Shown here in pieces: positions 22,810 to 64,000 of a DNA stretch of 64,000 bases; the first letter of the stretch is position 1, and every line of letters begins with the position of its first letter. The notes under the pieces are model-generated. The model worked only from the letters and a program-made list of their open reading frames with translations. It did not search any database and was not told where the DNA came from. The DNA is from Pomacea canaliculata. Lineage: Eukaryota; Mollusca; Gastropoda; Architaenioglossa; Ampullariidae. A program made the position numbers and the translations under genes. The stretch spans positions 12,279,731-12,343,730 of the forward strand of contig NC_037602.1 in assembly GCF_003073045.1 (NCBI RefSeq), given 5' to 3'.

Positions 22810-23308
22810 TTCTGAAAATTTAATGACAGGTAAATAAATGGATATTATCGACTATATCTTCCTTCTTTCTACGTCCAACAACACTTTGAATCAAGCGCCA
22901 TTCATAACAAGGCAGCAGGGGACATAACTGACTACAACTCACATTTTTAAATACATTTACTTTTTACTACATTTAATACTCGAAGTGCCTAGGATAACTC
23001 ATTTTTTCGTGCATACTTAAATATTACAAAATAGTGTTTTAAAGTACTCGGGAGTCTAAAATTACTGCACCTTCTCCTACTTCCGCCATATTTTTTCCAG
23101 TAGTAGTCACATTTTTTCTCTGTTATTACAACAAAGTGGGATTATCCGTACTAGGAGGTTTTAATTAATTTCTTTTTTTCACAATCTTAATATTGATATC
23201 GACTACAAACAACATTTTCTTACTTCAAAGAAGCGTAATGCGGCTTTACTTTGTCGAATAATTTCGTATTGCGCACGTTGTAGGTTTCAGTCTTCAATAT
23301 CGTGCAAA
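22810..23308. promoter_or_regulatory. Bidirectional promoter interval KNTC1/RIOK2
   Basis: The 499 bases between the two divergent start codons must hold both promoters and 5' leaders. No clear TATA box is visible. A 3' splice site pattern (TTTTCAG) lies two bases upstream of the KNTC1 ATG, so a non-coding first KNTC1 exon further upstream is possible. Transcription starts cannot be placed from sequence alone. Confidence 0.6.
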
Positions 23309-28379
<5,071 letters not shown>

Positions 28380-30075: not shown

Positions 30076-31089
<1,014 letters not shown>

Positions 31090-34000
31090 ATGAGTAGAGG
31101 CAGTTTGCGTCCCTTTACGAGAGGAAGAGAGATCCTGTCTCACGCTATTGCCGATTACAAAGGACAAGTTCAGAATGTCAAAGCAGCCCGAGTGTACATC
31201 TTTGGAGATGATGATATTGTCGAAGACGATGAAAATGACCAAACAGAGTTTGAAATGCCTGAAATACGTTCTAGACGTGGACAGCAAGGCATTGGTAGTG
31301 GTGGCCGGCTCGAGGAAGAAAAGTTTTATTTTGAAAAAGAAATAGTAGATGGTGAAACTTTACAGAGTGTTTCACTGAAGTATGCTTGTCCGGTAAGTAA
31401 AAATACTCACGCTTTGTATGTTGAAACGCTTAAAGAATTTAAAGTTATAGTCGTCGAGTTTATGTGTATTTGTGTTACCACATGGGGATTTAAAAACCCT
31501 CTTTCATTATCTGGGAGCATACAAACAATTAAAGAGTTTGTGTCTGCAGTTTTTATCCTTTCTCCACCCAAACCAATTGATCATATTCATGAGAGGATTG
31601 ACAACCTATCAGGAGACACCTAGGCACTTTGTCCCTCTTGTCCACAGTATCTTTTTCACTAAAAACATTGTGCTCATTCTGTGGAAAGTGAGCTATGAAC
31701 ATCAACATTTTAAGGAAGGAATATTGAAAATACATCAAGTACAAGCGTTTCGCTATTTTTATGAACATGTATAATAATAAAAAAAGATGGTATGAAAATG
31801 TGTGTTGGTTGTCTTTCGTGTCACAAGAAGACGAGGATTTGTGTGACTCATTTGTGGCTTCTGAACGGATTCTGCAGTCCCAATAGGTAAGCACAGAGTC
31901 TGGTAAAGATGAGGCACTGTTGTCAGGATGACTGCTTAATATACTCTGTGATGCTGTTCCTGTGCACCAACAAATCTCTGCCACTGGCTGGCCTCAGTTT
32001 GTGGGGGCTGCATGGGTCAGTGTATACCGTTAGGTTCTGTGACTGGCTGCAGGTTCCAGTTCTTAAAGTTTGATGTTGCACTACTGGAGATTATTTTATA
32101 AAGTGTCAGTGTAGCGCTTGTGTGGATGACCTTGCTTCTGCATGCCATCCTCTTGCTCACCGTAGAGCAGTTGGCATGGGATGCACTTACCTTCCATCCT
32201 GATGACATTACCCCTCCAATAGAGTTTGGCTTTGAGCAGTATGGCATTGATACTGGTACAATCCCTTTTATAGAAATTTTAACTTGGTGGCTGTAGAACA
32301 GTTTTTTATGTAGTTTTAGTATGGTAGGGTATAACACTACATGAATTAGTCCATGTAGATAGTTGTCAAGTGCATCTGCACGGTAATAATGATATCCCCA
32401 CCATATTTTGCAAGTATGTTGTGCAAACATGTAAACAAATGAACTGTTCTCAAACTGATGCATTAGACAAAAAGTACATCATTGCCAAATTTCTCTGCTG
32501 TGAAAAACCAGTTTCCTCTGCACCTACAGGTCTGACTGAGGTTCAATTACAAAATACGATGTAAATCACGAATCTACAAAATTTTTCTAAAATTCAGAAG
32601 AGGACTTTGGGAAATATTTTGACAACAGTGACTCAAATATACTCACGAAAATATGCATTACATAAAAATAGACTATTCTGCAGCCACATAGTTTAAATTT
32701 CTATAAAGAGTGATGGCCCATGCTTCTTCGGTCAAAGATTTTGAAGGAATATGGTAACATTTAGTGGTTTTATCATTAAACAAACAAAAAAACAGCATAA
32801 TACCATCTTTTAAAAATGTTTGTTGATATGATCCCTGAATTACTAAGTTTATCTTTATTGAATATTGTTTTTACTGATTTTTAAGGACCAGTCTATTATG
32901 TTTGGTGCATTATGCAGGCTGATAAGCTGTCCTACTTTTAGATCATAACCGTTCACATTATCTCTATCAGCAGCTATATGTATGTCAGAAATTGCACATT
33001 TTGGAGGAAAGATGGTTAATAGGTATGAGGAAGTAGCAATGTGTATTTTGTAAATATTTAGATTGCTATAAAAGTGAACTGGAAATGAACTAAGCTGCAA
33101 ATTTTAGTTGATTTAAATGTAGATTGTAATAAACCACCAAAAACAGGAGTTTAGAAGTGCTCATATGGTAGCTTAAAATGGATGTCAAAACATTTCATAA
33201 ACCTTATTTGAGCCTCTGGTTCCAAAGATGTCAGATGTGTTAATTTTATGACATTTTGTATGCCATCTATTGATCCCTTATCAAAGCTGCCCACACCTGT
33301 GCTTCCATGTAGCATTTGGTAGAGAACATTTCACACAAGCTGTTTATTGATCTGGGTTCATTTTGCCATCTTTGCATGATTGAATATTGCTTATATTACT
33401 GTTTGGGAGGACACACCTCTTGATCAATGATAAAGATTACTGATCACTAGTACATGTATCATACTACACTGCACATGCCTAACAATTACACTACATTTGT
33501 CAATGCCTATTTAGACAGTGGCATCATTTTCTTGACAGCATCTGTGCACAATAATCTTGTGACCAAAAGACCAATGCAAGCGCACATTTTTCTTTGGAAA
33601 TGTCTATTTCACCAGAAGACCCATTGGTACTGCACTTCATCTGTATATATTAAATTATTTCTCAAGAACCATTATATATTACAGTACTCCAGAAATGAAA
33701 TGCAATAATCTATCACATATCTTCAGCATTGCATCAGATCATTTGTTGTGTTGTTCTTTTTTTAGTTCTTGAATGAGTTTCTCCCTATTAAAAAATGTTT
33801 GAGCCTTTTTGTGGTTAGACAAATAACACAGCTTTATTGATTTTATGTTCAGGTATCAGAGCTGAAAAGAATCAATAACCTCATCAATGATCGAGACTTT
33901 TTTGCCTTACGACACCTCAAGATTCCCATGCGGCGCCATGGCTACCTGTCTTCCATTGTTGCACAAGAAGAACAGAACAAAAAGAGGCCAGCAGAAACAC

Positions 34001-38260: not shown

Positions 38261-41185
38261 TCAGTACACTCCTTCATCATCTTCGTCTTCATCTTCACCG
38301 CCATATCCCTCACCATTGTCGAAGTAGGTCATGTTATAATCTGTTTCCTGGGAAAAACAGCAAAAAATCTCAAATGTATGTCCACAAGATGACTGACTGT
38401 AAAGAGCTGAGTATAGTTTTAAAATGTTGAAATAATACATGCCTGGTACCCAAGTTCATGTCTGGCATCTATTCATGTCTGAGTGGATGGTATCACATAT
38501 GAAATGGTTTGTACTCAGATATTACATCTCACACATTATTATTAGTGCTTGCAATTAATGTTATATGACACACCTATATCAAGCTATAATTTCTTCTCTT
38601 CACACAGCAACGTTACACATCAGTTTTGTTTCCCTTCTATCAACAAAAGAAAATATATAAAAATAGAAAGATGTACTTACTTCTTCAAGCTCCTCCTCAT
38701 CATACTCTTCCTCTGCTTCTTCCTCCTCTTCATCTTCATCCTGCTTTTCTTCTTCTCCTTTAGTGTCTACTTGTTCCTTCTCTGCAGTCTCTTCAACAGG
38801 TGCTTTCTCTAAAGTCTGAACCAAAAATACACAAATTTTAACTCCAAACTGAAACCTACTTTGGTTTTCAATAGAAAGATATAACTTTAAGCACAAGTTC
38901 ATACTACTCACTTAAAAGCTGGATGGGGCAAGGTTGTTAGAAAGGTCACCCAGTTAAAAGTAGAAAAAAGACATGGCAACACAATGGGTCAAAAGTGTTA
39001 CTCAAGATTTCTTAAAATTCTGTTCCCCTGCCTATTTCAAGGACTAATAATAATAATAATTAAAAAAAAATTCTGAGCATGCTCTCACCTCAAGAACTTT
39101 TTGCACAATTTCTTTGACATTCCTATCCTTTCTTGCTATAGGGGTAGCGGCTTTCAGTGTTTTGTGTTTTCTCACCCTTTTCTCTCTGAGCTCAGCAGGA
39201 AAACGCTGCCAGTCTGGTGGAAAATGTGTTTGACACAATAAGGGACACTAAAATCATCAAATAAATGTTAAAGATGTTAACATTTCTATACAGAACAACT
39301 GTTCTAAAATCATGATCAGATAGACATATATTGCAATATGTCATTGTAAATGCCTAAAATCGCACGTGTGCATGGATAAGGTGTAAACATTTGGAGAGCC
39401 TAACAAAAGTCTGGAATGTTTTTCAATAATGATTAACTGGTTTGAGGAGACTGCTGTCTTTTCACCTGTTATTCTATAATTGGACTTTGCTTTAATGCAT
39501 GTTTTATGGTCTACCTGTCACTAGACATCTGCATGTGATGTAACTCCTTACACCTGAGTTGCTTTATTTTCTTGACTTTGAGACATCCATATTGATGCAT
39601 ATCAAAATGCTTCAATGCCTTTTGACCTTTGTTGATATGTGGATTTGTGTGTGTGTGTGGCATTGGGTTGGTTCACAATGCTTTGTAAATCCTATTGAAA
39701 CTGTGGGCTGCACTGTCTAGTGACAGCGTTTGCCATGGAGAGGGTTTCTTGGCTGGTTTTGATGTGTGGAGACTACAAATTATAATTTATATGAGAAAAC
39801 GTCTATGCTTTTGCCTTGGACTAATTGTCCAGTCCTCCCTAGCTGCCTTCATCTCTTTCCTGATGTCACAGTTTGTTTGGAAAAAAATAGTCAGTTAAAA
39901 TTACGTAAATTTGTATTGTCACCACCTAATGACTTCTTTGCTTTTATTCATAGATCTGGACCATAAGTAAGCAATATTGAACTGTAATGTGCACAAGGCA
40001 TTGAACGGACAAATCTAGGCATCCATTGTCCTTATACTAAATATGACTAGCATATCTTATTCTCTGATTTTATAAGGCTTTTCGGTACTTTTCTGTGATG
40101 TGCACTGAGCTCACTACCCAGTAAAATACTTTATACATACTCTTTAACAGTAATAACCATTGGAAGAAAATCAAAAGATGACTATTACTGTAATACTTGA
40201 AAACTATTTTTCTGAGAATGCACATGCAGTGACCTTAACGGAACGTGAAACAAAGTAACTTTCAATAACTTATACAATATGCAGTAATCTCTACTTTGTC
40301 ACCACGAGATTTATTAATACCATATTTCTAGGGATATGTTTTGATACTTTAAATTCATTAGTTAAGTTAATCTGTTTAACAGTCAACTACTGAAAATACT
40401 GCATAAACACACTTACTTGGTGTCCAGTTGCCCTGAACATCTTGCTGACCAAGTTGATACTTATCCGAATAACGCTCAATATCTTGTTTCTTTTCCACCA
40501 AGGTGAGGTAAAATGGTGAACGGCGAATTGTTGTTCGAAAGTCCTGCTTTAAAGCTAGCAAATAATCATAATCTTCCCCTTTCTGGAGAGGTACTGGTTT
40601 GTATAGCAGCAGCTGTAAATAAACACAGGAAAGATTCTCATTTTGTCAGCATTTCAACATATCTGATTTCAAGTGAAGCATAAAACATAATCATGGTGTC
40701 GTGCTTTGTAAACAGCATTTTTCTCATTTCAAGAAATAAATGGGTACCAAAAATAAGCGATCAATAGCTTTTAACATGATCATTGAAAATGGGATGGATG
40801 CCTAGTGCCGGTGCTAGTGGCACCAGATTTTTTGCATCATGGCCTTTAATTTTACAATATAAGCAGTATAGAAGACTGATAAGTAAGTAAAGTTAAATAG
40901 TAATGATAACTGGGGATATCATTTATCCTATGTAGACAAGAATTTACCCTAGTTATGTCTTAGCAAAATTACAAATGATTATATCAGTATCACAACGACA
41001 CTATAGCAATGAGTCTCATAAAAGCCCACGTACATATAACAGCACGAGGTATTCATTTTAATCTTTACCGGATAAAGGGGCGGTGGCTGCTGAATTGCAG
41101 CCGGCAAAGTTTCACCCCTACCAAATCCTAGGGTATCAACAGAGAAGGACAGTCCCCTCCCTCGTCCTCTCCCACGTGCCGCCAT
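38261..41185 (-). CDS. POLR3G: DNA-directed RNA polymerase III subunit RPC7
   Basis: RPC7 (yeast Rpc31) is part of the RPC3-RPC6-RPC7 subcomplex that lets Pol III initiate on tRNA and 5S genes. Five exons: 41069-41185, 40417-40612, 39089-39213, 38681-38815, 38261-38347, giving 219 residues (human POLR3G 223), with all splice phases agreeing. The N-terminus MAARGRGRGRG is the typical Gly-Arg start, followed by GFGRGETLP, PPPLYP and YKPVPLQKGEDYDYLLALKQ, then QDIERYSDKYQ and NWQRFPAELREKR, all family landmarks. The fourth exon encodes a highly acidic, glutamate-rich stretch, and the last exon gives the conserved TDYNMTYFDNGE plus an acidic tail ending GVY. Vertebrates have two paralogues (POLR3G and POLR3GL); an invertebrate normally has one, so the symbol denotes the family. 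Confidence 0.96.
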
Positions 41186-42003
41186 CTTCGATTCTTCTTT
41201 CGATTCCTCCGTAGAATAACCTTAACCTTTCTGAAGTTTTAAATTGCTTTCAAGTAAAATTTTTTTTCAAACATTTCTTATAAGTAATATTTTGTGAATA
41301 TATAATTAATCTGTCATTCACACACACAGAGCACATATTTTTAGTCTCAAAATCGTCTTGACTACACATTATTTACAAATGGCGACCATTGTAATTGTAA
41401 TTTTTGCTAGTGATTAGCGTGTAACAAAGTACCACTTAAGCTGCAATTGAAATGTAAGAATGTTTGAATGCACTGAACACATTTTCTTTTGATAAAATAT
41501 TTTGCAGTTTTATTTGTTTTTGTTTTTTTTTTTTCTTTAGCAGAAGAACCATGTAGTGTTGAATAATCTTCATAAATACGTCTTTAAATTTCTTATTGTA
41601 CATGCGCATGACTAAGTCTTCTTATATAAGTTTATTACAAGCACACTATACACCATGTTGTATTTTCTGTGAAGCAAAGGAAAAAGTAATCTTTTGCATA
41701 AAAATACCTAATGTTTGATGGTACTTTTGTGGTACTAATAATTTAATTATAGTCCCTCTGCAAGAGACTTTGTATTTTCTTCACCAGCAGTTTAATACCC
41801 ATTTATTGTCTCAGGATTAACACAACCAAAAGTTATAATCTAGGCTAGTTGTATAGCTGCAGGCAGAGCTTAGTATATCAAGTGGTAAAACGTTGCCAAC
41901 ATATAATTTCTTAACCATGGAAGGAATTCCCAAAACATTAAAGTGTGTCATGATCATTTTTTTTTCATGTTAATCTACCAGCAAATATCAGGCAACATAG
42001 CAA
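41186..42003. promoter_or_regulatory. Bidirectional promoter interval POLR3G/FAM221B
   Basis: The 818 bases between divergent start codons. The 40 bases just upstream of the POLR3G ATG are less AT-rich than the rest. No TATA box or tRNA-like element is evident. The FAM221B first coding exon has only six codons, so its leader must lie here. Confidence 0.5.
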
Positions 42004-51500: not shown

Positions 51501-52249
51501 TAGCCTTGACAATTTAAGTGTATTCATGTGCTACACTAACATCATCAAGATTCAACTCTTCCAATGCCCTGGTGAGAATTTGAAGACTAGTAACTTAACA
51601 AAATAGTGTGTCTGCTTAAATTTTGTAAACTGGTATCAGGAAAACTTGGCCCAAACATTTACAAAAATTGCACTCTACAATGTTCACTGCAAGAATACAA
51701 CTTTAAAGTATATTTAAAAGAAGGTCATAAACTTCTGCCCAAGTGCCAATATCTTAAAAAAATGTACATGTACAAGGACAATTAATTTTTGTGTCCATTG
51801 GAGTAGTTAAAAGATAGGACAGTGGCCATGAAACAGCCTATAATACAGGCATAAATAGGTTATATAAATATATATTGTATTTAAGTATTCATCAAAACTA
51901 ATAATATTTGAGTAAAGATGGAACTGATAAACACTAGTAAGCACAAATGTGGTAACCAGCTAGGAAAACAACTTTTTAAATACAAAATAAAACCCATCAA
52001 ATCTCATCATCATCTTAGAATTATTATTAAAGTTAACTGTCAATCCAGAAAGAGTTTTACTGCAAATGCAGTCATAGTATTTAAGAAATAGGTGCATGGT
52101 TCAGTGGACGGATCAACACCTCTCTACCAACAAACCAAAAATATATATCTTCTTATTCAGAAATCTCTCAAGCTGCATCATGATGATCAATCTACATCAG
52201 ATTTAAATTACTACATTTTTCTTTACAGTATTCAGGGCACTTCATAAGA

Positions 52250-52392
52250 ACTTCACTTGAAGTGTTATATTTTCCATAGAAACACCATAAATACAAAGCT
52301 TTCAACAACTTCTGTCCACAAGAACTCCACTCAAAGTGTTATATTTTCTGTAGAAACCCATAAATACAATGCTTTCAACCACTCTTGTCCAT
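52250..52392. repeat. Tandem duplication, ~71-bp unit
   Basis: Two adjacent copies share the ordered blocks AAGTGTTATATTTTC, TAGAAAC, CATAAATACAA, GCTTTCAAC and TGTCCA, with a few substitutions and short gaps. Confidence 0.75.
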
Positions 52393-52889
52393 AGTTTGTG
52401 TGACTGAAATCAAACACTAGCCAGTCCAGCCTCACTAAAGTTCTGACATACAGATATGGCTGGGTGGCAGGATACTGAGAATCCATAGGCAAACATAACC
52501 TCTTTTAATTCTTATCTCAACTTTGGAGTGACTTCCTGCAGCACTAAAGTAAATTCAAAATAAAGGATTCAAATAACACATCAGTTCACATGAAAAAAAA
52601 AACAAAAACATATTGCAGATGTTTTTAACTTTGTTTGGAAACAATGATGGCAATATGTTGCACTCTAATTTTTGACCTTTTTAATGCCTCTTTGCTTGGC
52701 ATATAAAACTTATCAGTTTTAGCAAAAACATTCTTCAGCTCTGGAAAAAGCCTATGCTTAGTCATGTCAAAATTAAAAACCATCAAAAGTTTTATTCTTT
52801 TTCTCTACACCTTTTTTTTAACCATTGCTACTTTTTTTTTCAATGCACACTACCAACACTCTTGTTTGTGTGGTTTTTTTCTTGGCTTG

Positions 52890-53590
52890 ATTACTGTTAA
52901 CTCCTTGTTTGTAGGCTGCCACTCATACCTCATCAATAAACTCCAGAAAGTACAGAACTTCACTGGACATCTGGTGCTTAGAGCTAGGAAACAGGACCAC
53001 GTCACTCCTCTCCTTCATTTTCTGCACTGGCAACTCATCCACTCTCGCATTCAGTACAAACTGTGCTGTGTTTTAATTTCTTTGCAGGCTCCTGCCCTAA
53101 CTATTTCTCTGAAATTCTCTTTCCCTACGTCCAGCCAGACAACTATGCTCTTCATCTGATGACTGTATCCTATTACTGCCACCAGAATAACAACATATGG
53201 TCACAGGCCTTTTAGTTACTGTGCAGCAAAACAATGAAACTCTCTCGCTTTCCATATCTGCCACCTACCTACAATTGAATCCTTCAAAATCTGAACTGAA
53301 ATGCACAGCTTCTTTAAGCATTACTCCAAAAACAATCCACACAATGCTAGTCCTTTTTCATCCCCAATTTTTCCTATTGCTACTTTCCTACTCATCTTCC
53401 TTTTTTGAATCACAATATTTTCAGTTTTTGTTACTTGGTTCCTCTTTGCATTTTCTGTTTTTTATTTGTTGTCAGCACTCTTGTTTTTTCTATCCCTCAT
53501 ATGCTGTCCATGTCTCATTTGTTTTAAGCACTAAGCATTCCTTATGAGTGTATGTGATATACAAATCTTTCATTTATTATTATTTTTCTC
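52890..53590 (+). mobile_element. Degraded LINE 3' end (L2/CR1-type reverse transcriptase C-terminus)
   Basis: In frame 1 the sequence encodes SYLINKLQKVQN, LVLRARKQDHVTPLLH, LHWQLIHSRIQYKL, and after a frame change THMVTGL (from a TYGxRAF-like motif), ETLSLSI and ESFKSELK-like segments. This is the ordered C-terminal tail of L2/CR1-type reverse transcriptases (KLQRVQN...ARLV, HVTPLLxxLHWLPV...IxYK, NSLP). Stops and frameshifts show it is dead. It ends in a TTTATTATTATT tail, as expected for L2-like elements. Confidence 0.8.
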
Positions 53591-54351
53591 CTGTGACAAC
53601 TACAGCACACAACAAATTAATACACTTCGTTTTTGGGTATGTTTCCTTTTTTAACTTCTATCTCTTTATCGTTTCAACCATTGATGTCACTAAACTTTGC
53701 AAATTGAAAAGCAGCCCTGTTTAGCAACATTGTCAACTTGTCACATTGAAGCAGTTTGATTTTTCTGGTTTCCCTCTGGTCAGAATAGCACCAGTATTCA
53801 TATACTACAAGGCCCTAAACACATGGTGGCCAACAGATGAAAGGACAGCAGCAGGAAAGACAGTGACTGAGGTATAAGGTAAAGTCTTGAAAATGACAAC
53901 TGTTTGCTTGGGATAAAACTGATATTTTAGTGTAAATTAAAAGATAATGATATAATTCTCAATAATTATATAGGATTCTCTTCTAAATGATAAGGACTAT
54001 ATGATCATTTAGACAAATATTTAACACTGGGGCAAAAACTCCGTAATATTTTTTATATAAGTTTGATTTTGAGGTTTTGCTTGCCGTGAAACTATCAGCG
54101 AATGAACCTTGTGGATTCAAGCAGATTTCATACAGAACAGGTGACATAAGCAGTTTGCATACAAAAGGGATTTAAGTGGGGAGTGAATGGGTGCAGTGAC
54201 CAAATAAAAGCAGATTCTTTTGCTGCCAAATTTGTCGGCCAGTATGTTAATGATTACAATACACTTGAATGGAAAACACTGCTAGAGAGAAGCTCACTGT
54301 TGAAGATGCAAATACAGATTTTTCTGCTCATAGATCAGTATGGGCTGTACA

Positions 54352-57300
54352 CTACTGTAGGTCACTGCTAAATGGTGGGAAGGCAACACTGAAGCCTGGG
54401 TAACTGCTTTGTTGAAACTGTAGTGTGGCATGCTGTGAAGGACACATAGAATCTAACAAAAGACTTTCCAGCTCAAAGACTGTTGTCAACAGCCCCATGT
54501 TTGAGCTGCTGAATCTCTTCAGTTTGCTTAGGCACTCCATGGCTTCGAATGGTGATATCTCTGGCAATACTCCCATATCATCCACAGACGGCCGCAAAGG
54601 TCCAATGGCTGCAATTTCACTGCTTTCATCAGGCTCACTTTTGATGTTGCGACCAGTTGTCTCTGCCAGAAGTGTTGTCTCCCATTCTTCTCCATCTCCT
54701 TGGTGGCAGGGAAGCTGAGAATCGAACTGAGAATAAATGTCCGCTGACATGGGCATGAATTTAAACGTCTGTCCAATCTCTTCTATTAACTGAGGTAGAT
54801 CTTCAGGAATAAACTCAAGGTTGACTGGACTTTTATCCAGACTGCATGAACTTTTGTTTTCAGGGAAAGCTGCTGCTTGAAAGCAGGTAGTGATGATCTC
54901 AGAATTAATGTTGCGCCAAGCTTCCTGTTTCAATCAAAAGAAATATCTATTTAACAATAACAAAATAGCCAAATATTTTTATGCACATAACTACCAAAGA
55001 TAATCTGTATTTCTCATAAAAAATAGCTACTTAAACTGGTTAAGGTTTGTGCACAAAGTGGAGTAGAGTATTATTGCTCTAGTATCTGGTCAACATACCC
55101 TGAGAATTTTCTACATAAATATATTCTACAATAAATCCTACAATCCTATAACACAAAGCAAGTGAGCAGATACCCCAAAAAAGAAATCTGATTAGTGATG
55201 ACATAATATAAAGCTGCAGCTCGGATATTAATGAAAAAATCTATTCCTGTATATGCAAATGTTTGTGTCTTTTACAGATAAATCCTTGAAGAAATAGTCT
55301 GTAGCACAACTGTAACTGTTACTATAGCTGTAACTGCTTTTAAAGACTAACCCAAAGCAAACATGAAATTTAGTTAAAGATTGCTGTCACATTCACCAAC
55401 TTTACTACTGAAATTAAGTTTTTAAGAAAAATGTGACTTCATTTATTTTCTTAAAAAGCACCTACACCTAAAGCACATTTATTCAATCTTTTGACATTAC
55501 TTAGGACTGCAACAAATGCAGCATGTGCTAATATGGCTTTGTACCCTCAGCAAGTTTACTTTTGTGACAACAATAGAAAAGAGGTCTCCACCTTCTAAAA
55601 CCCACTGGAGAAATGTGAGGTTCAAAGGCTTATATTTCAAGAATAGAGTAAAAAGGGTTTTTATTTTTTGCTCAGCTTGGGTATCTTATAATCTTTTAAT
55701 TAATTATGTGCACTCATTTCAAATATAATTTTCCACTTGGGTTAGCTTTTAACACTTCAGTCAATATTCTTTAGTGACACCACAACCATATGAAAATTAT
55801 GGTGTATTCCGCAATGCTTTTGTGTGAAGGAGTTTTGTCTCAAGTTGTCAAGACATTCAGCCATGTAAAGATAAGAGAAAAATGGATTGCATGGAAGAAG
55901 ATATCTCCAAGCAATTGAACAGATAAGAAGCCTCTCTTCGTACACATTGTTTAAAAGTAAGGCAAGAACTGAAATCCACACACTAATTTTTGTTGTTAAA
56001 TACATATCTAAATTTTAAATCTGAACCTCTCAAGGACAAATAAGCATGACATGGATCCTTCAGAAAGACAGAAGATAGGGACTGGTTTAAACATGTGAGA
56101 CAGACAAAAACAACTCATTATCTGATATGACATTTTCATTTGAAACAAATCTACAAACCCACAGTAAAAGAAACAAACTAAAGTCTAACAAGTACAGCAT
56201 GATTAAAAAAAAAAACCCCAATTTTTAAGTCTTGGTGTCAGAACAGCCTATGACAGAGCTAGGAGCTATAGACCAAAGATGACTCTATATTCTTTTCACT
56301 CCTTTTCCCTCTTACTCTACCCACCAGCCTTAAGTTTGAAATAATTTGATGCTGGGTTACACATCATGAAAAATTATCTTCTCACATGTATCCAGAAAAC
56401 TGCATCAAGCTCTGAAACAGCTTCAAGAGCAGAGAGGCAGTCATCAGTGGAGCAAGTTCTAGCTAGAATGGACTGCAACAAACGCCGACGATAAATGGCT
56501 TTTAAAGTCTGTATAACACCCTGGTTTAAAGGTTGCAGGAGATGGGAAGAGTCATCCAGATAAAACTTGAGACTGATGTTCTTCAGCAAAGTAGAAGCAA
56601 GATGGCTTGGAGTCATGTCCATGAACAGGGCAATCTATTAATCAAAATGAACAATTTTATTACTACAAGAACAGTATCTGCCCAATACTAAAAAAAACCT
56701 GAATATAATGATACCAGATAACATTTCTTGAGAAGAAATGCATTAAAACAGGATCATTGCATATTAATGTAATATCTAAAGACTAAATCCTAGCGAATTG
56801 TCATGAAGTGCTATTACACACAAAACAAATATAGTGAGGAAGTTCATGAAAAATGCATGAGGATCACCTTTCATTATTTTCAGCTTACCCTGTACTTGAT
56901 GGCATCCATGAATGCAAACAGTTAAGACTTATGCAATCACTGTTACGTGATGAAATGAACAATGATGGCAAGGTCAAACTTATGAAACATTTTATGAGGG
57001 CAGACAGATACGTTTTGCCTCCACAGTAGTATTTTTAGTTACATTACAGATTTCTGGATAAAACCAGTTCCACATAGTCCAATCCAGTGTACATTAAAAT
57101 GTAAGGGTGTTGAAATGTTTGGTTCAAAATTCCAAACATAAGCTAGAAATGTTTTACTAATTTTTTAAAAATCTGAACAAGTTGCTCTTGCAAGCTTCCT
57201 CAAAAAAGAAACAAAATAACCTTTAAAAGTTACACCAAATCTTTGACAGCATTTAAAAAAAAGGCGCAATCAAATGGATTGGAATAAGAAATGAAATATT

Positions 57301-60184
57301 TCTTCAACATGATAACGCCAAGCTTCATACAAGTGAAGCAACAAGAGATACAATTCAGCGACTTATTACTGCAGCAGCCTCTGTATAGGACAGACCTGGC
57401 TCCTGGTGAATTCTACTTGTTCCCCAAACTAAAGGGTCAGTACTTAAGCTGTGATGAAGAGATGAAGTCTGCAGTGAGAAAATGGTTTCAAAAACAAAAC
57501 ACCAATTGGTTTTGGACAAATTAAACAAATTAATACAGGATAAGTGGAAGGTGATTATGTAGAAAAAGCTGCTCTAAAAATAATTGACGGATGCTTGTTT
57601 CTTTCATTATTTTATTAAAATATCTTATCCTGTTTATTTTCTATTTAAGTAGAGGTAAAACTTGACAGCCTGGCCTTTTAGTATTGCACACAATTTAATT
57701 TGTTGGAAAAATAATTGGAAAAAGCTCATATAGTCAAGAACTTGTGCCATAATACTAACAGCAGCAGGGTGTGCTTGAAAGAATGAAACTGGATTTTCTT
57801 TCACGATGGTAAAAAATATCTCTTCACAGCCTGCATGTTAATCTAGACATGTATAAACATCCATGCAGGCACTCTCCAAAGGAAGGAAGGTGTACAACTG
57901 TTCGATAATTCTGTTAAAGGGAAGTTTAACTTTAAAAAAAAAAAACAACCACACAAAAACAGTGAATCAACGACTAGTGTTTAAGTCCAGCCCTCAGTGA
58001 CTAATAGGGTAAATACATATGCACAAAACTATTTACATGTCTTTTTTGCTGTCCCATAGCTGTGTCTAGTCCACGCAACCAACTAGCAAATATCTCAGCT
58101 GTCATATTTGCATTAGGTTGATGACACCATCCCACAGGCAAATCTGACATTCTTATGTTGGACAACGAAGCAGGGCTGCCATGCCGCGACACAACCAGGG
58201 GCTTAAGACGCTCCCCAAGAGCATTGCAACACAATAGGATGGTCAGTCTGTTCTCTAGGACATCTGAGTGGTGATGACAGCCCTGTGAATAGTCAGAAAA
58301 TGTTATCAAAAGCAATCATAAATGGTATTTCATTAACTAACCTTTTCTTCTCACTCTACCTGTTTTGTGTGAAAGCACACATACCTGTTCACAAGCAAGC
58401 ATGCACCCACAAGTTTAGAACGAGTGATCCCACATTTTATATGCACAATTCAGATAAGCATCAGACTACCAGAGCTGATACTTTCTAGGCAGTTTACAAA
58501 AAGCTAATCTAATTATTCTGCAATCATGTTTTCAGAACATTAATAACAGCATGAGTGAAGACAGAACACCCATTGAATGTTTCCTTAAATTGTATGTTTA
58601 ATGTTAAAACTTGATTTGATTTTATTTAACCAGTCTTTCTGTGGCACCTGTTTCTTTACTGCGTGGGTTAGGGGGAGATGGCAGGTCAATGAAACTTTAG
58701 CCTATATTGTATCAGATGAATATTCTTGTTATTTCTATTATTTTGTGTGTGTATAATGTTGCATATATGTTGCTTAAATTTTGAATTATTCTATGATTGT
58801 ATGTGTTGTACATGTATGTCTTGTGGAATAAAAATGTTATAAAAAATTGTACATTTCTATTTATTTCCTCCAGTTTAAATGCCCAACAGCTGACCCTTAC
58901 CTTGCATGTTGCTCCTGTAATAAAGCATTTGTCTGGTAAGCACTTGTAATAAAGAGCTGTCTCTGAAATGGTGAAGATGTTCTCTGGCTCATATCCCTGC
59001 TGCAGAAAAGGAAGCATCTTTCTCCACATTGACAGCAGCTTAACATCACTGTCGGACATGTTAGATTGCTCTGGTAAAGGTACCGCAATATCAATAGACC
59101 TTTTCAGGTTTTCTACCCACAATCCTGAAGAATTAAAGTTCAGGATATTCAGTTTGACTGCAAACTCTCTAGACTTCTCAATTATGATGGGCCATGTTAA
59201 AGGTTTCATTTTTCCTTTAACCTTTTCAATCCATTTCAAAATTAGGGTGTGCAGCTCATCATATCCAGATCTCTTTGGTGGACGAGTAAATCTGAAACTT
59301 TTACACGTTGAAGGAACTTCATTTTTCTCAAATGCTTCCAAATACTCCCTCTTTCGCCGCAATATATTATTGACTGAGCCTACAGATATGTGAAATTCAG
59401 CTGCAAGGGAACGCTGGCTTTTACCTGTTGTCTCTGACATATTTATCAATCGCACTTTTTCTCGAAGAGCAAGGTCTGTACGCACTTTCTGTTGACGTGA
59501 CATAGAGCGGGAGGACGGTGTCTGGTAGTCCATCAGCTTTTTTAAGGATGAGTTTCCTTGTTCTGGATTTCTCTGAATCCATTTAATTTTTTCCATCAGC
59601 ATCTGACTGACAACTGGGTGCTGCTCCTGTCCTGCAGAAGCATGAAGTGGGAGATGCTCAGGGTAAAAAGTTCCTGTTAATGATGAGCCAGTATGTTCTG
59701 GGATTCGACCAGCAAAAACCTCAGTCATGATGTCCATTTGATCACCCATAACAAATGGCCCACTTGGTGGTCTTCGTGACATGTGTGACAAAATAGGACT
59801 ATGCTGTTCCTCAGCTGAGTCACTAGCTATTGGAGTTGATTCAAACAGACTAGGCGGTCTTCTCATCACTGATGAATCACCACCTTCTTTTGATACATCA
59901 GCCATTATTCTATCCACTATTCCAGTCGCTAAGTTTCCCATGTCATTAGATGAATCCTTTGGTGATATTTCTTGCATCATCCGATCAACAACACCTGTCA
60001 AATGATCACCCTCTAAAGAAGAGTCTTTGTCAAGGCAGGTAGCATCTTCGTCACATGGTGACAGATCTGATGGATTGTCATCTGCTTTGGGTCGAGTGAT
60101 CAAATTTCCCTCAGCTAAGTTAAACGCCATGTAACCATGTCTCTCCATGTCACTGTCACTTCCATCGGAGTCCTTGCTGTCCAT
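54352..60184 (-). CDS. Domesticated pogo/Tigger transposase-derived protein, catalytically dead
   Basis: Four coding exons, 58901-60184, 58037-58282, 56386-56634 and 54352-54924, all joined in phase 0, give 783 residues. Residues 1-220 are a serine/acid-rich region unlike transposases. Residues 231-285 form a CENP-B-type N-terminal helix-turn-helix (LALREKVRLI, SQRSLAAEFHISVGSVNNIL), and 308-362 a second, HTH_CENPB-like domain (LILKWIEKVKGK, GLWVENLKRS). A DDE_1 fold follows: ENIFTISETALYYKCLPDK, RLTILLCCNALGERLKPLVV, IALFMDMTPSH and SSHLLQPLNQGVIQTLKAIYRR. Tigger proteins have aspartate at each of the three catalytic positions; here they are S407, D516 and N547, so transposition activity is not expected. 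Residues 594-783 are a new acidic C-terminus with IKSEPDE (K688), a SUMO-type motif. Long, open, intron-split frames point to a host gene, probably a nuclear DNA-binding protein. The start at 60184 follows a 3' splice site, and a non-coding exon ending at 60618 has a good donor. Confidence 0.88.
57296..57600 (+). mobile_element. Mariner transposase remnant
   Basis: Inside an intron of the Tigger-derived gene, opposite strand. The first frame reads IFLQHDNAKLHTSEATRDTI, the mariner second-aspartate region (HDNAxxHT), then a stop near 57390; a neighbouring frame continues with RTDLAPGEFYLFPKLKG, DEEMKSAVRKWF and stops, the third-aspartate region (PDLAPxDYHLFPxLK). Frameshift and stops make it a fossil. 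Neither terminal repeat was located. Confidence 0.85.
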
Positions 60185-60979
60185 GTTCCTTTCAAACACA
60201 AGACAGACGAGGTGCATACTTCCAAAACATTCCCATTTAAATAATAACAAATTTGCTGAAACCATTAAGACAAAGATAAAAAAACACTCTGGCAGAATGT
60301 AAATAATTAAGACTTCACTGATATTTTAGTTCCCTTAGGGGGGGATGTGTGTGTGTGCGCGCGCGCACCAAAAAAGAAAGGAGACTGGAGTGATGGATAG
60401 CTCATCGTCAACGGAATTAAATGACAGCGTCAACATTTTTAGAAAAAAAGCACAAAAATATCGCACTCGGATGTACTTTCTCTACAGTTCTTTTAATTTT
60501 TGGAAGTATATTCCCATAATAATTCATCGTGAGCAAAATCAGTACAGAATGTAATGTCAATAATGGGATCGCCTTCGGTCCATTCACTGTTCATCAACCC
60601 TTGTTTTAGCATCTTACCTGAATTCGGTAAGACCTCTGCCAGGCCTCCTAACAATGATTAGGTGCAGTGAATCACGTCTGCCACACAGATTGGTACCATC
60701 AGATACATTGTTAGCGTGCCAGCTCAAGACACACCGAAGAAAAAGAGGACTTGAAGAAGTTGCAGAGGATGGCGCACGGATAATTATTCCGTGTGTATTG
60801 ATTAACTCCCTTAGATTACTCTATCTAGACACAAAAATTATGTTATTAAATTTGCAGCATTTAATGTATTTGTAAAACCATTTAAAGGTGAAATCGAAAT
60901 TGTATATTATGTATTTGAGGTAGTCTAGATAAGTTTTAGTTGAATCCATACATTCAAAACAAAGTGAAAGGTCATCAAA
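60185..60979. promoter_or_regulatory. Leader and bidirectional promoter, Tigger-derived gene/SDHAF4
   Basis: Contains a predicted first intron of the Tigger-derived gene: minus-strand donor TTCAG|GTAAGA at 60618 and acceptor TTGAAAG|GAAC at 60188-60189, four bases before the ATG. The likely promoter lies between about 60640 and 60979. The intron includes an alternating GT/GC tract at 60344-60368. Confidence 0.5.
60344..60368. repeat. Alternating purine-pyrimidine tract
   Basis: ATGTGTGTGTGTGCGCGCGCGCAC-type run following a G tract. Such runs can adopt Z-DNA. It lies in the first intron of the Tigger-derived gene, close to the shared promoter. Confidence 0.8.
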
Positions 60980-61575
60980 ATGGCGTTCATTCTACGACGA
61001 ACTGCTAGTACGTTTATAACGCTTTTACGCAAGAAACTTGATTAATTTATCTTTAACTATTCTGTAATACGACAAAGATTTTTGTATTTTGATATGTGAA
61101 GAATTTTGCGCCACATTTATATCATCTGCATTTATATTTGTTAGTTTCTATGATTGCAGTTGTCTGTAGCAGACAACACAACGCCGTAGAGTGGATGCTT
61201 GCTAGTTTGTTGTTAGAAGTCACTGATGTTGTCGATCTGTGTATGCCTTACGTGCGGTCTAATTTTTCAGTGCCATTTATAAGTTTCACAAGACAACAAC
61301 TGCCTGAAATAGCTTTAAACTTTCGTCACCATTCTGAAGACAGCAAAGCTGGTAATGACAAATCAAAACGAAGAAAGGGAAAAACGCCAACAGGGAAGCT
61401 CGATGACAAGTGGGAGAACGAGGGGGAAGAGAGACAGCCACAGGGAGAGCAGGAACCTTTAGAACGCTTTCCAAACGACACAAACCCAATTACTGGCGAG
61501 ATTGGTGGCCCACGAGGGCCGGAACCCACACGATATGGAGACTGGGAGAGAAAGGGTAGAGTAACGGACTTTTAA
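60980..61575 (+). CDS. SDHAF4: Succinate dehydrogenase assembly factor 4
   Basis: SDHAF4 is a mitochondrial matrix chaperone that binds flavinylated SDHA during complex II assembly and limits its auto-oxidation. Two exons, 60980-61007 and 61271-61575, give 110 residues (human 108). The first nine codons, MAFILRRTA, start a basic, amphipathic presequence that continues in exon 2. The C-terminus carries the family block [35 protein letters not shown] and ends VTDF. Donor A|GTACGT and acceptor TTTTTCAG fit in phase 1; a nearer acceptor in the same phase (61159 region, GATTGCAG) would add about 37 residues unlike the family and is less likely. It is head-to-head with the Tigger-derived gene. Confidence 0.96.
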
Positions 61576-61579
61576 TAAA
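61574..61579 (+). promoter_or_regulatory. SDHAF4 polyadenylation signal overlapping the stop codon
   Basis: AATAAA begins on the second base of the TAA stop. A second AATAAA lies at 61774-61779. Use of the first would leave an extremely short 3' UTR. Confidence 0.5.
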
Positions 61580-64000
61580 AATACTTTAAGTTATAATATC
61601 CTAAACTACACCTCTATATTGTATAGAAACTATGATGTCGACATGTTGTGCGGGACAGAATTAAATGGTTGCATGTGCAGTGAAAAAATCGATGTCAGAT
61701 CTTCCCATCCAGCATATTTTTTTCAGACTTTGACAACAGGTTTTTTAAAGTAAATTTTGTACAATTGCATACAAATAAAGAAAATATGCATCAAATAATT
61801 CATGCAGCTTTTGTGACCATTTGCATGTGCATGAAGTGCAGGGTCTGTTTTGTGAATGTTGAAAGTACTATCAACTATTTTAAAACACGCTGAAACATTT
61901 TTATTGAGAAGACTGTGGACTGGTAATGATTCCTCCAAAAAAATTCGTTAGAAATGCTTGAATGGCAACCTATTGAACTATTTATTGCATGTATACAATT
62001 TGAGCCAAAAATAGAAATGCCATTTTTTTTTTTTCACAGCATGTAAAGACAAAGCATTTTAAACAGAAATGGTCAGTTCTTTTTCTTACTCTTACTCTCA
62101 CTTTTGTCTTAATGATGGCATTAGTTATGAAATATGTTGTGTCTATAATGCGAGAAAACACTAAATTTTAAAGGTCTTTCCTCAATCAATTTCTGTGTAT
62201 ATATTATGTTTGCTTAGCCCGGTAATGAAGTGCGGAGAGGTGGGCTACATAGGGATTCTGTACTATATAAGCATCCAACTGAGATTTTACCAGAGAATGT
62301 GCATGCTACTGGACTTCATTTGACTAGTAGTACAGAATTCAGCTCATCTCTACAACCCCTTCAACTGCCCTTTCCCATCCCAAATAGGTAAGAACTGGTC
62401 ACACACAATCTTTCAAAATCCAGTGACACTGCTTTATATTCCATGCAGATTTCTTTTGAAGCATCCAGTCATACTGTCACTGGTAATAGAGCAATGTATA
62501 TAAAAGCACCATACAATAAACAAGATCCTTGCTACACTGGATGAAGTTGTTACAAGTTTGATAGTGAAACCAATCATGGTAATTAGGTGATAAAGATTTA
62601 TAAAATATCTTTGGATATAATCCTTGTAATTGTTGATTTCTCTACTTTTTACTTCTAATAACTAGTAATTTTGTTTTTACATTAACATTTTCTGTTAAGT
62701 AGCAGATATTCCACCATAACCTTTGCTTTGAAATGGCAGTGTTACTTATTTGTTTAAACATATTTTTAAAAAGGGGGGGGGGGTAAAATACGGTCATGTT
62801 GGTAGAAAACCTTTCATATTATCAGAGTAAGCTAATCATTGTCAGTGAAAGGTCAAGTAAATGGTCCATGTGCATCAGTATGTACATTTATATTGCATAC
62901 AAACCATGTCTGCAATATCTAAATGTCCTGGTTCACCATACCTGAAATAAAGTTGTGAGCCAGTTGCTAAGCCTGGTTGGATTACCAAAATAAAACTTTG
63001 GATCAGTACCAAAGGTGCAGATACACATTTTCATAATTTGATAACAGCAGTTCAACTGTAGTTGAGAGTGTAAAAACAAGTTATAATCCCTCTAAAAATT
63101 CTATGATTGTGGCTTGAAAGTTTGTATAAATACATGTATATTCTATCATTTCTGCCTCATGTATTAGTTGTTGTTCTCATGTTAAATGCAATAAATAACT
63201 GCTCATTACAGATAATTTTAGGAAGTTCTCTGAAAACATATGGTTTTATCAGGATACTCTAAGAAAACACACAATAGACAAAACATTACTGCACGTGTAA
63301 TGCTGAAGAAATCAATATTACACAGGATGATTCTTAGTGAATTGAGCCAAGTTCAACTGCTTGTTATCGGGCATTTTATTATCATTATAAACTGATGTGA
63401 GTACAGATAGATAATAGAGCTGGACAAGTCTTAATTTTCAAATTAACAAGTCCCTTTGTAGCAATTTTCATCAATTGTTTAAAAAATGTTTTCAAAGAGT
63501 TACACTACATTCTTCTTAAAACTATGTAGGGGCAAGTCAATTTTGTTTCTATGAAAGCTTTACTACAATTACACTTACAAATTGGTTCTAGAGAAATAAA
63601 TTGCAGTTTCACAGAAATACTGTAATGAATCCGTAGCTACATTCACCAGTCAAACCAGTCCCGTTTCTAACCCACTACTGATTCCAAAAGACCATGTTTG
63701 CTTAAAGATTCAGTAGCTTCCCACATAAGAAATGTCTGTTGCACATTCAGTCAAAACTAACACCATAATAACAAGAATCTCCATGAGATTCTGCCAGTCA
63801 GCAACACATCCAGAGAAGAAAAGTGAACAGTTATTTCAAGAGCGAAGGGCACAGAACTGCTGAAACACTTCCAGAATATGGATGTCTATATCAGAGGTGA
63901 AAAGCAAGCTCTCAAGTGTGCTGATGTAGCAGAAGACCAACTGGTGATGCTGCAAGAAGATCAAAAAGTAGCAGTATCAACATGTCTCATTTACTGATGA
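61580..64000. other. Downstream of SDHAF4, mostly unexplained
   Basis: Apart from the exon-like segment at 62217-62389 I see no conserved coding sequence. A run of eleven G lies near 62773-62783. A 56-codon open stretch without ATG at the start (about 63826-63997, plus strand) looks weakly coding but matches nothing I know. Confidence 0.4.
62217..62389 (+). other. Candidate internal exon of an unidentified gene
   Basis: About 173 bases bounded by a 3' splice pattern (GTTTGCTTAG) and a strong donor (AATAG|GTAAGAAC), open throughout in one frame. The predicted peptide begins PGNEVRRGGLHRDSVLYKHP and ends in a proline-rich LPFPIPN. Composition is coding-like and less AT-rich than its flanks. 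I do not recognise the family; partner exons were not found, so it may belong to a gene extending beyond the window or be an alternative SDHAF4 3' exon. Confidence 0.4.

Follow-up and report, generated by a model that had tools for sequence, protein, structure and literature searches.

We analyzed a 64,000-nucleotide stretch of the genome of the snail Pomacea canaliculata (the window; C13:12279731-12343730), and in it a gene at positions 54352 to 60184, here called the window gene. Its sequence supports an origin from a transposase of the pogo superfamily, and, as a single locus, it is a well-supported molluscan example of the kind of recycled transposase represented by CENPB and the TIGD genes. 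We consider it probable that this transposase was domesticated and kept for its DNA-binding half, the product working as a chromatin or transcription regulator. Domestication is supported because no near copy was found among the scored matches in the genome, no terminal inverted repeats (TIRs) were detected around the gene, the coding region is split by introns, and codon 407, at the first catalytic site, carries a three-base change.

Gene structure, domains, and catalytic residues

Joining the four exons (Table 1) gives an open frame of 783 residues, and the three introns have GT-AG ends and are all in phase 0. The intron-split frame of this length proposed in the initial annotation was thus confirmed. 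The run of 428 consecutive open codons has a probability of 4e-12 per start at the stop frequency of the window (0.0595). The start codon is uncertain: upstream of position 60184, the same frame stays open to 60325 and contains more Met codons.

In the spliced protein, the Pfam matches follow the domain order of the pogo superfamily, in which CENP-B_N and/or HTH_Tnp_Tc5 precedes DDE_1. The DDE_1 match covers residues 439 to 608 (E value, 1.8e-33; above the cut-off), and exons 2 and 3 cover consecutive parts of the DDE_1 profile, so that splicing yields one contiguous match. The only solved structure matched at an E value of ≤1 was the DNA-binding domain of human CENP-B (1hlv; E value of 2.1e-10, residues 235 to 362), and the HTH_Tnp_Tc5-like domain lies mostly inside this match. 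Together, the Pfam and 1hlv matches bear out the tandem helix-turn-helix (HTH) domains and DDE_1-like fold of the earlier description. A centromere-binding CENP-B analogue, to which the 1hlv match could point, is nevertheless very improbable, since no CENP-B_dimeris match was obtained for the 783-residue protein at E values up to 1 and the 1hlv match is unspecific, the DNA-binding domain being common to pogo-derived proteins.

The positions given earlier for Ser407, Asp516, and Asn547 were recovered in both the spliced translation and the codons. The protein consequently lacks the intact DDD triad of a functional pogo/Tigger transposon, with Ser407 and Asn547 standing at the first (D1) and third (D3) sites.

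Copy number and terminal inverted repeats

The genome searched comprises 440,159,624 bases in 24 contigs and contains 62 DDE_1 matches. When the full protein was used as the query, the search returned the four exons of the window gene itself and 30 other scored places (a lower bound), which were 25% to 34% identical. This is not the set of multiple similar copies expected of a functional transposon, and the scored matches included no TIR-bearing near-identical copies of the window gene. Two scans outside the genome, one of viral contigs with the whole protein as the query and one of prokaryote contigs with exon 1, gave 2 and 38 pattern matches, respectively, none of which was a relative.

The claim that no TIRs flank the gene also held. 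Of the 31 inverted pairs in the window, one among the 25 listed spans the gene, an AT-rich pair of 14 nucleotides (nt) at 53572 to 53585 and 60239 to 60252. Between the flanks (52000 to 54351 versus 60185 to 62000), the best inverted identity over 28 nt was 0.64, a value reached by 143 of 200 shuffles, whereas the control, a pogo-derived locus of the same genome labeled L013 (such loci and frames carry the labels L013 to L028), gave 0.96. TIR-like motifs in the window were not above chance either (7 found versus 8.95 expected). The positive controls L013, L014, and L020, the last of another family, had TIRs of 28 to 29 nt with 97% to 100% complementarity. The window gene thus combines a long open frame with the lack of a scored near copy and of TIRs, as a domesticated gene would.

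Probable selection after loss of the catalytic residues

Under a neutral model, ~90 to 111 new stops are expected in the frame per substitution per site, and half of such frames would have acquired a first stop by ~0.007 substitutions per site, 95% of them by 0.031. The TCA at codon 407 differs from both Asp codons at all three bases. Of 4,000 simulated neutral decays from an Asp codon, in which substitutions only were allowed and the parent was assumed to have had Asp at this site, 111 lost the Asp ahead of the first stop, and none had changes at all three bases by then. Because a three-base change at codon 407 preceded any stop in none of these runs, the result points to selection on the frame during at least some of the period after the loss of catalysis, a statement about the past rather than the present.

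The same evidence bears on the idea that the window gene is a transposon copy that died recently and, though free of selection, has by chance kept its frame open. Young copies elsewhere in the genome (L014 and L015) have indeed lost catalytic residues yet keep open frames. However, the window gene has no TIRs above chance, no scored copy more than 34% identical, three introns, and a three-base change at codon 407 in the presence of 783 open codons. We rejected this explanation on these grounds and give it hardly any likelihood.

Table 1. Features of the window gene, its surroundings, and two relatives in the same genome
Feature	Coordinates	Strand	Details
Exon 1	58901..60184	-	Residues 1-428; ATG at 60184, donor TGCAAG/GTAAGG (exon/intron)
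Exon 2	58037..58282	-	Residues 429-510; DDE_1 profile 2-74, E 1.4e-12
Exon 3	56386..56634	-	Residues 511-593; DDE_1 profile 80-160, E 1.2e-10
Exon 4	54352..54924	-	Residues 594-783 and stop TAG
Tandem duplication, ~22 residues	59891..60025	-	Residues 54-74 and 77-98, N-terminal addition
CENP-B_N	59336..59488	-	Residues 233-283; Pfam E 5.3e-5, above cut-off
HTH_Tnp_Tc5-like	59087..59263	-	Residues 308-366; Pfam E 3.4e-4, 21.0 bits versus cut-off of 22.2
Ser407, codon TCA	58964..58966	-	Replaces first catalytic Asp
Asp516, codon GAC	56617..56619	-	Second catalytic Asp, kept
Asn547, codon AAC	56524..56526	-	Replaces third catalytic Asp; 30 residues between Asp516 and Asn547
Head-to-head gap	60185..60979	.	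~0.8 kb; SDHAF4 start 60980 read by eye
SDHAF4 coding frame (DUF1674)	61093..61575	+	PF07896 E 8.5e-22; divergent neighbor
L017	C8; L036:3798-5480	-	560-residue intact single-exon frame; D1 and D3 lost; no clear TIRs
L028	C4:291075-292769; L037:4073-5770	-	565-residue intact single-exon frame; D2 replaced by Asn, D3 lost; no clear TIRs

Relatives in the same genome and the parent family

L013, L014, and L015 (on C9, C2, and C4), which are among the 30 scored places, have open frames and are 91.5% to 93.6% mutually identical, L014 and L015 being 91.5% and 93.6% identical to L013, respectively. This family was probably recently active in P. canaliculata, because its copies are near identical and those two tested for TIRs, L013 and L014, have near-perfect ones. 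In L014, Val stands at D1 and Asn at the second site (D2), and in L015 Asn stands at D3; in all, Asn was found at the third site in 3 of the 13 aligned relatives (L015, L018, and L026).

Such living elements raise the possibility that the window gene acts as a trans-acting repressor of pogo transposons, occupying the transposon ends but not cleaving them and so serving in genome defense. The retained DNA-binding half, the lost catalysis, and the persistence of TIR-bearing relatives in the genome would all suit this role. However, the best-matching TIR-bearing family is only ~28% to 29% identical to the window gene, making a shared binding site doubtful, and we regard the repressor role as quite unlikely.

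Two further relatives, L017 and L028, resemble the window gene in their degraded triads, in their C-terminal tails, and in having no clear TIRs, but they are single-exon frames. They are 22% to 23% identical to it and have no long N-terminal addition. The inverted pairs around L017 (20 nt, 80%) and L028 (22 nt, 77%) are weak and were taken as chance matches. A genome search with L028 returned L028 itself and six places at 26% to 29% identity, and L028 is another candidate domesticated gene. L017 also matches HTH_ABP1_N, the HTH model of a fission yeast centromere protein (E value, 6.9e-7).

The initial annotation had assigned the window gene to the Tigger type, but this name is not established. 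The spacing between the second and third catalytic sites is 30 residues in the window gene as well as in L013 to L015, L018, and L026; it is 31 to 36 in L016, L019, L020, L021, and L023, 31 in L017, and 28 in the poorly aligned L025 and L028. Spacing cannot decide the family, because the ranges given in the text of Gao et al. (2020, PMC7386202) for Tigger (DD29-36D) and pogoR (DD29-59D/E) overlap at 30. Two trees were built from same-genome rows, without named Tigger references: one of 12 rows, leaving out L025 and L026, and one of 11 rows, leaving out L028 as well. L016, L019, L020, L021, and L023 formed a clade (support of 100/100 in the 12-row tree and 100/99 in the 11-row tree) that excluded the window gene, which stood next to it in the 11-row tree at 59/67. 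In approximately unbiased tests, neither a grouping of the window gene with L013 to L015 (P = 0.277) nor one with L017 (P = 0.374) was rejected.

Terminal regions of the protein

Residues 1 to 225 contain 38 acidic and 19 basic residues and have no Pfam match. They include a tandem duplication (Table 1), whose two segments, picked by eye, align with a local score of 48 that was reached by 0 of 1,000 shuffles. At the other end, the C-terminal tail aligned with the tails of L017 and L028 better than did any of 500 shuffles (z scores of 7.7 and 7.3, with start points picked by eye). When the first 30 residues were removed, the score was reached by 3 (L017) and 10 (L028) of 500 shuffles. No such similarity to the tails of L013, L016, and L020 was seen in the shuffle test. 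The tail similarity is that of the shuffle test only; a BLASTP search with the C-terminal 175 residues alone gave nothing significant (best E value, 0.22). Because of its alignment with the tails of L017 and L028, the C terminus is probably an inherited tail, and the N-terminal 225 residues are the clearer addition. Thus, of the long additions at both ends described earlier, the N-terminal one stands, whereas the C-terminal one resembles what two relatives also have. A single psi-K-x-E motif, at residue 687, is unremarkable.

Comparison with known domesticated transposases

In the gene lists of Gao et al. (2020, PMC7386202), TIGD3, TIGD4, TIGD6, and CENPB are pogoR-derived vertebrate genes. 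Their products share CENP-B_N, HTH_Tnp_Tc5, and DDE_1 domains and a degraded triad with the window gene. They differ in length, at ~470 to 600 residues compared with 783 in the window gene, which in addition has three coding introns and a 225-residue N terminus with a tandem repeat. TIGD6 is listed as DD30N and thus agrees with the window gene in its spacing of 30 and its final Asn, but the window gene has Ser at the first site; the triads of CENPB, TIGD3, TIGD4, and TIGD5 are given there as not recognizable. The Tigger-derived genes of the same lists (TIGD2, TIGD5, TIGD7, JRK, JRKL, and CENPBD1) are single genes with the same domains and, in some cases, partial triad loss. Their spacings, where listed, are 34 (TIGD2, JRKL, and TIGD7) and 32 (JRK and CENPBD1), compared with 30 in the window gene. 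POGK and POGZ, listed as Passer derived, are likewise domesticated pogo transposases with added parts, but they have a spacing of 35 and KRAB or zinc finger domains, whereas no Pfam match to KRAB or zinc finger domains was obtained for the window gene at E values up to 1.

The Asp-30-Asn arrangement at the last two sites, as in TIGD6, among genes whose other members have unrecognizable triads, is compatible with the window gene being an old, conserved metazoan or lophotrochozoan pogo-derived gene, orthologous to a TIGD-type gene and working in the same mode. Its long branch and three introns also suggest age. Against such orthology, most of the vertebrate genes are described in Gao et al. (PMC7386202) as separate domestications, the oldest dating to lobe-finned fish or amphibians, and a metazoan survey (PMC10027918) describes factors derived from transposable elements (TEs) that have no one-to-one homologues in the closest species. 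We therefore hold orthology with a TIGD-type gene to be rather unlikely.

That survey reports a molluscan expansion of the CENPB type, and the word Pomacea is absent from its main text; it also states that next to nothing was known for Lophotrochozoa. Among the titles and abstract openings listed in the literature searches, none names the snail gene. For vertebrates, genes of pogo origin have been well characterized, and the window gene offers a concrete locus at which the passage from transposase to host gene can be studied outside this group.

Neighboring SDHAF4 and the shared upstream region

The adjoining gene named in the initial annotation, SDHAF4, was identified by PF07896. It is oriented divergently from the window gene across the gap given in Table 1. 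This head-to-head geometry is the same as that of co-opted TE genes in mammals. In the data that Kalitsis and Saffery (2009, PMC2777200) give for humans, 23 of 63 co-opted TE genes are in bidirectional pairs, always with a CpG island, and among these pairs is TIGD1-EIF4E2. Like the window gene, TIGD1 is pogo derived and lies head-to-head with a host gene; according to the same paper, however, TIGD1 keeps its catalytic core, the event was a primate one, and the gap is a CpG island, whereas the snail gap is CpG rich but AT rich. The snail locus allows the question of whether shared promoters rescue co-opted transposases outside vertebrates to be asked.

The CpG observed/expected (o/e) ratio peaks at 60351 to 61150, the second-highest peak in the window. 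The enrichment supports the presence of a promoter in the gap, perhaps that of SDHAF4 alone, and is not evidence of domestication, because copies of other families show it too. Other CpG o/e peaks of the window, at 22951 to 23750 (1.28), 30551 to 31350 (0.94), and 40951 to 41750 (0.79), are possibly promoters of neighboring genes.

Proposed course of domestication

In the course of events that we envisage, an ancient pogo copy would have sat upstream of and antisense to SDHAF4, would have shed its TIRs along with two of the three catalytic aspartates, and at some stage would have gained three introns and the acidic 225-residue N terminus. Selection since the insertion would have kept the tandem HTH DNA-binding domain. 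The CENP-B_N and Tc5 pair may bind a sequence element that was originally the transposon end, and the dead DDE fold with the acidic ends may form a protein interaction scaffold that recruits partners. Transcription would start from the CpG-rich gap shared with SDHAF4. A more specific version, which we put forward tentatively as possible, is that the domestication is specific to gastropods, the window gene, L017, and L028 being perhaps three pogo-derived genes with dead triads in this one snail. The window gene would then have been retained because, by inserting where it did, the transposon gained the use of the SDHAF4 promoter in its opposite direction, and the new acidic, internally duplicated N-terminal domain would have given the protein a new regulatory function. 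If true, this gastropod case would extend the mammalian head-to-head rescue route to molluscs.

Several observations weigh against domestication for a regulatory role. The genome search scores the best candidates only, so all copy counts are lower bounds. The branch of the window gene is long (1.5 to 1.8), and the trees do not settle its nearest kin. Loss of triad residues is also seen in the young copies L014 and L015, and Asn at D3 is also seen in decayed copies; because even young copies show such loss, the degraded triad alone is weak evidence for domestication. Accordingly, in the earlier claim of a transposase turned host gene with its triad destroyed, the loss of D1 and D3 and the lack of scored near copies stand, whereas triad loss by itself proves nothing. 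A single-sequence AlphaFold model of residues 225 to 372 was poor (mean predicted local distance difference test score of 55), although its helices lie roughly where those of two three-helix domains would be expected. The gap, despite a CpG o/e ratio of 0.79 (compared with 0.28 for the window), has a GC content of only 37% and is no classical CpG island. Upstream CpG o/e ratios are also raised at six other copies (0.72 to 1.17) and at L028 (1.0), but not at L017 (0.36). The gene body has a ratio of 0.41, compared with 0.60 to 0.89 in eight other pogo-derived frames, which is possibly a sign of age; we give it little weight, as body CpG is confounded by region (0.28 for the window versus 0.73 for L036, the region around L017, and 0.45 for L037, the region around L028).

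Intron 2 of the window gene contains, on the plus strand at 57257 to 57524, frameshifted pieces (HDNAKLHTS... and DLAPGEFYLFPKLK...) that gave no Pfam match and were recognized by eye as resembling a decayed mariner transposase.

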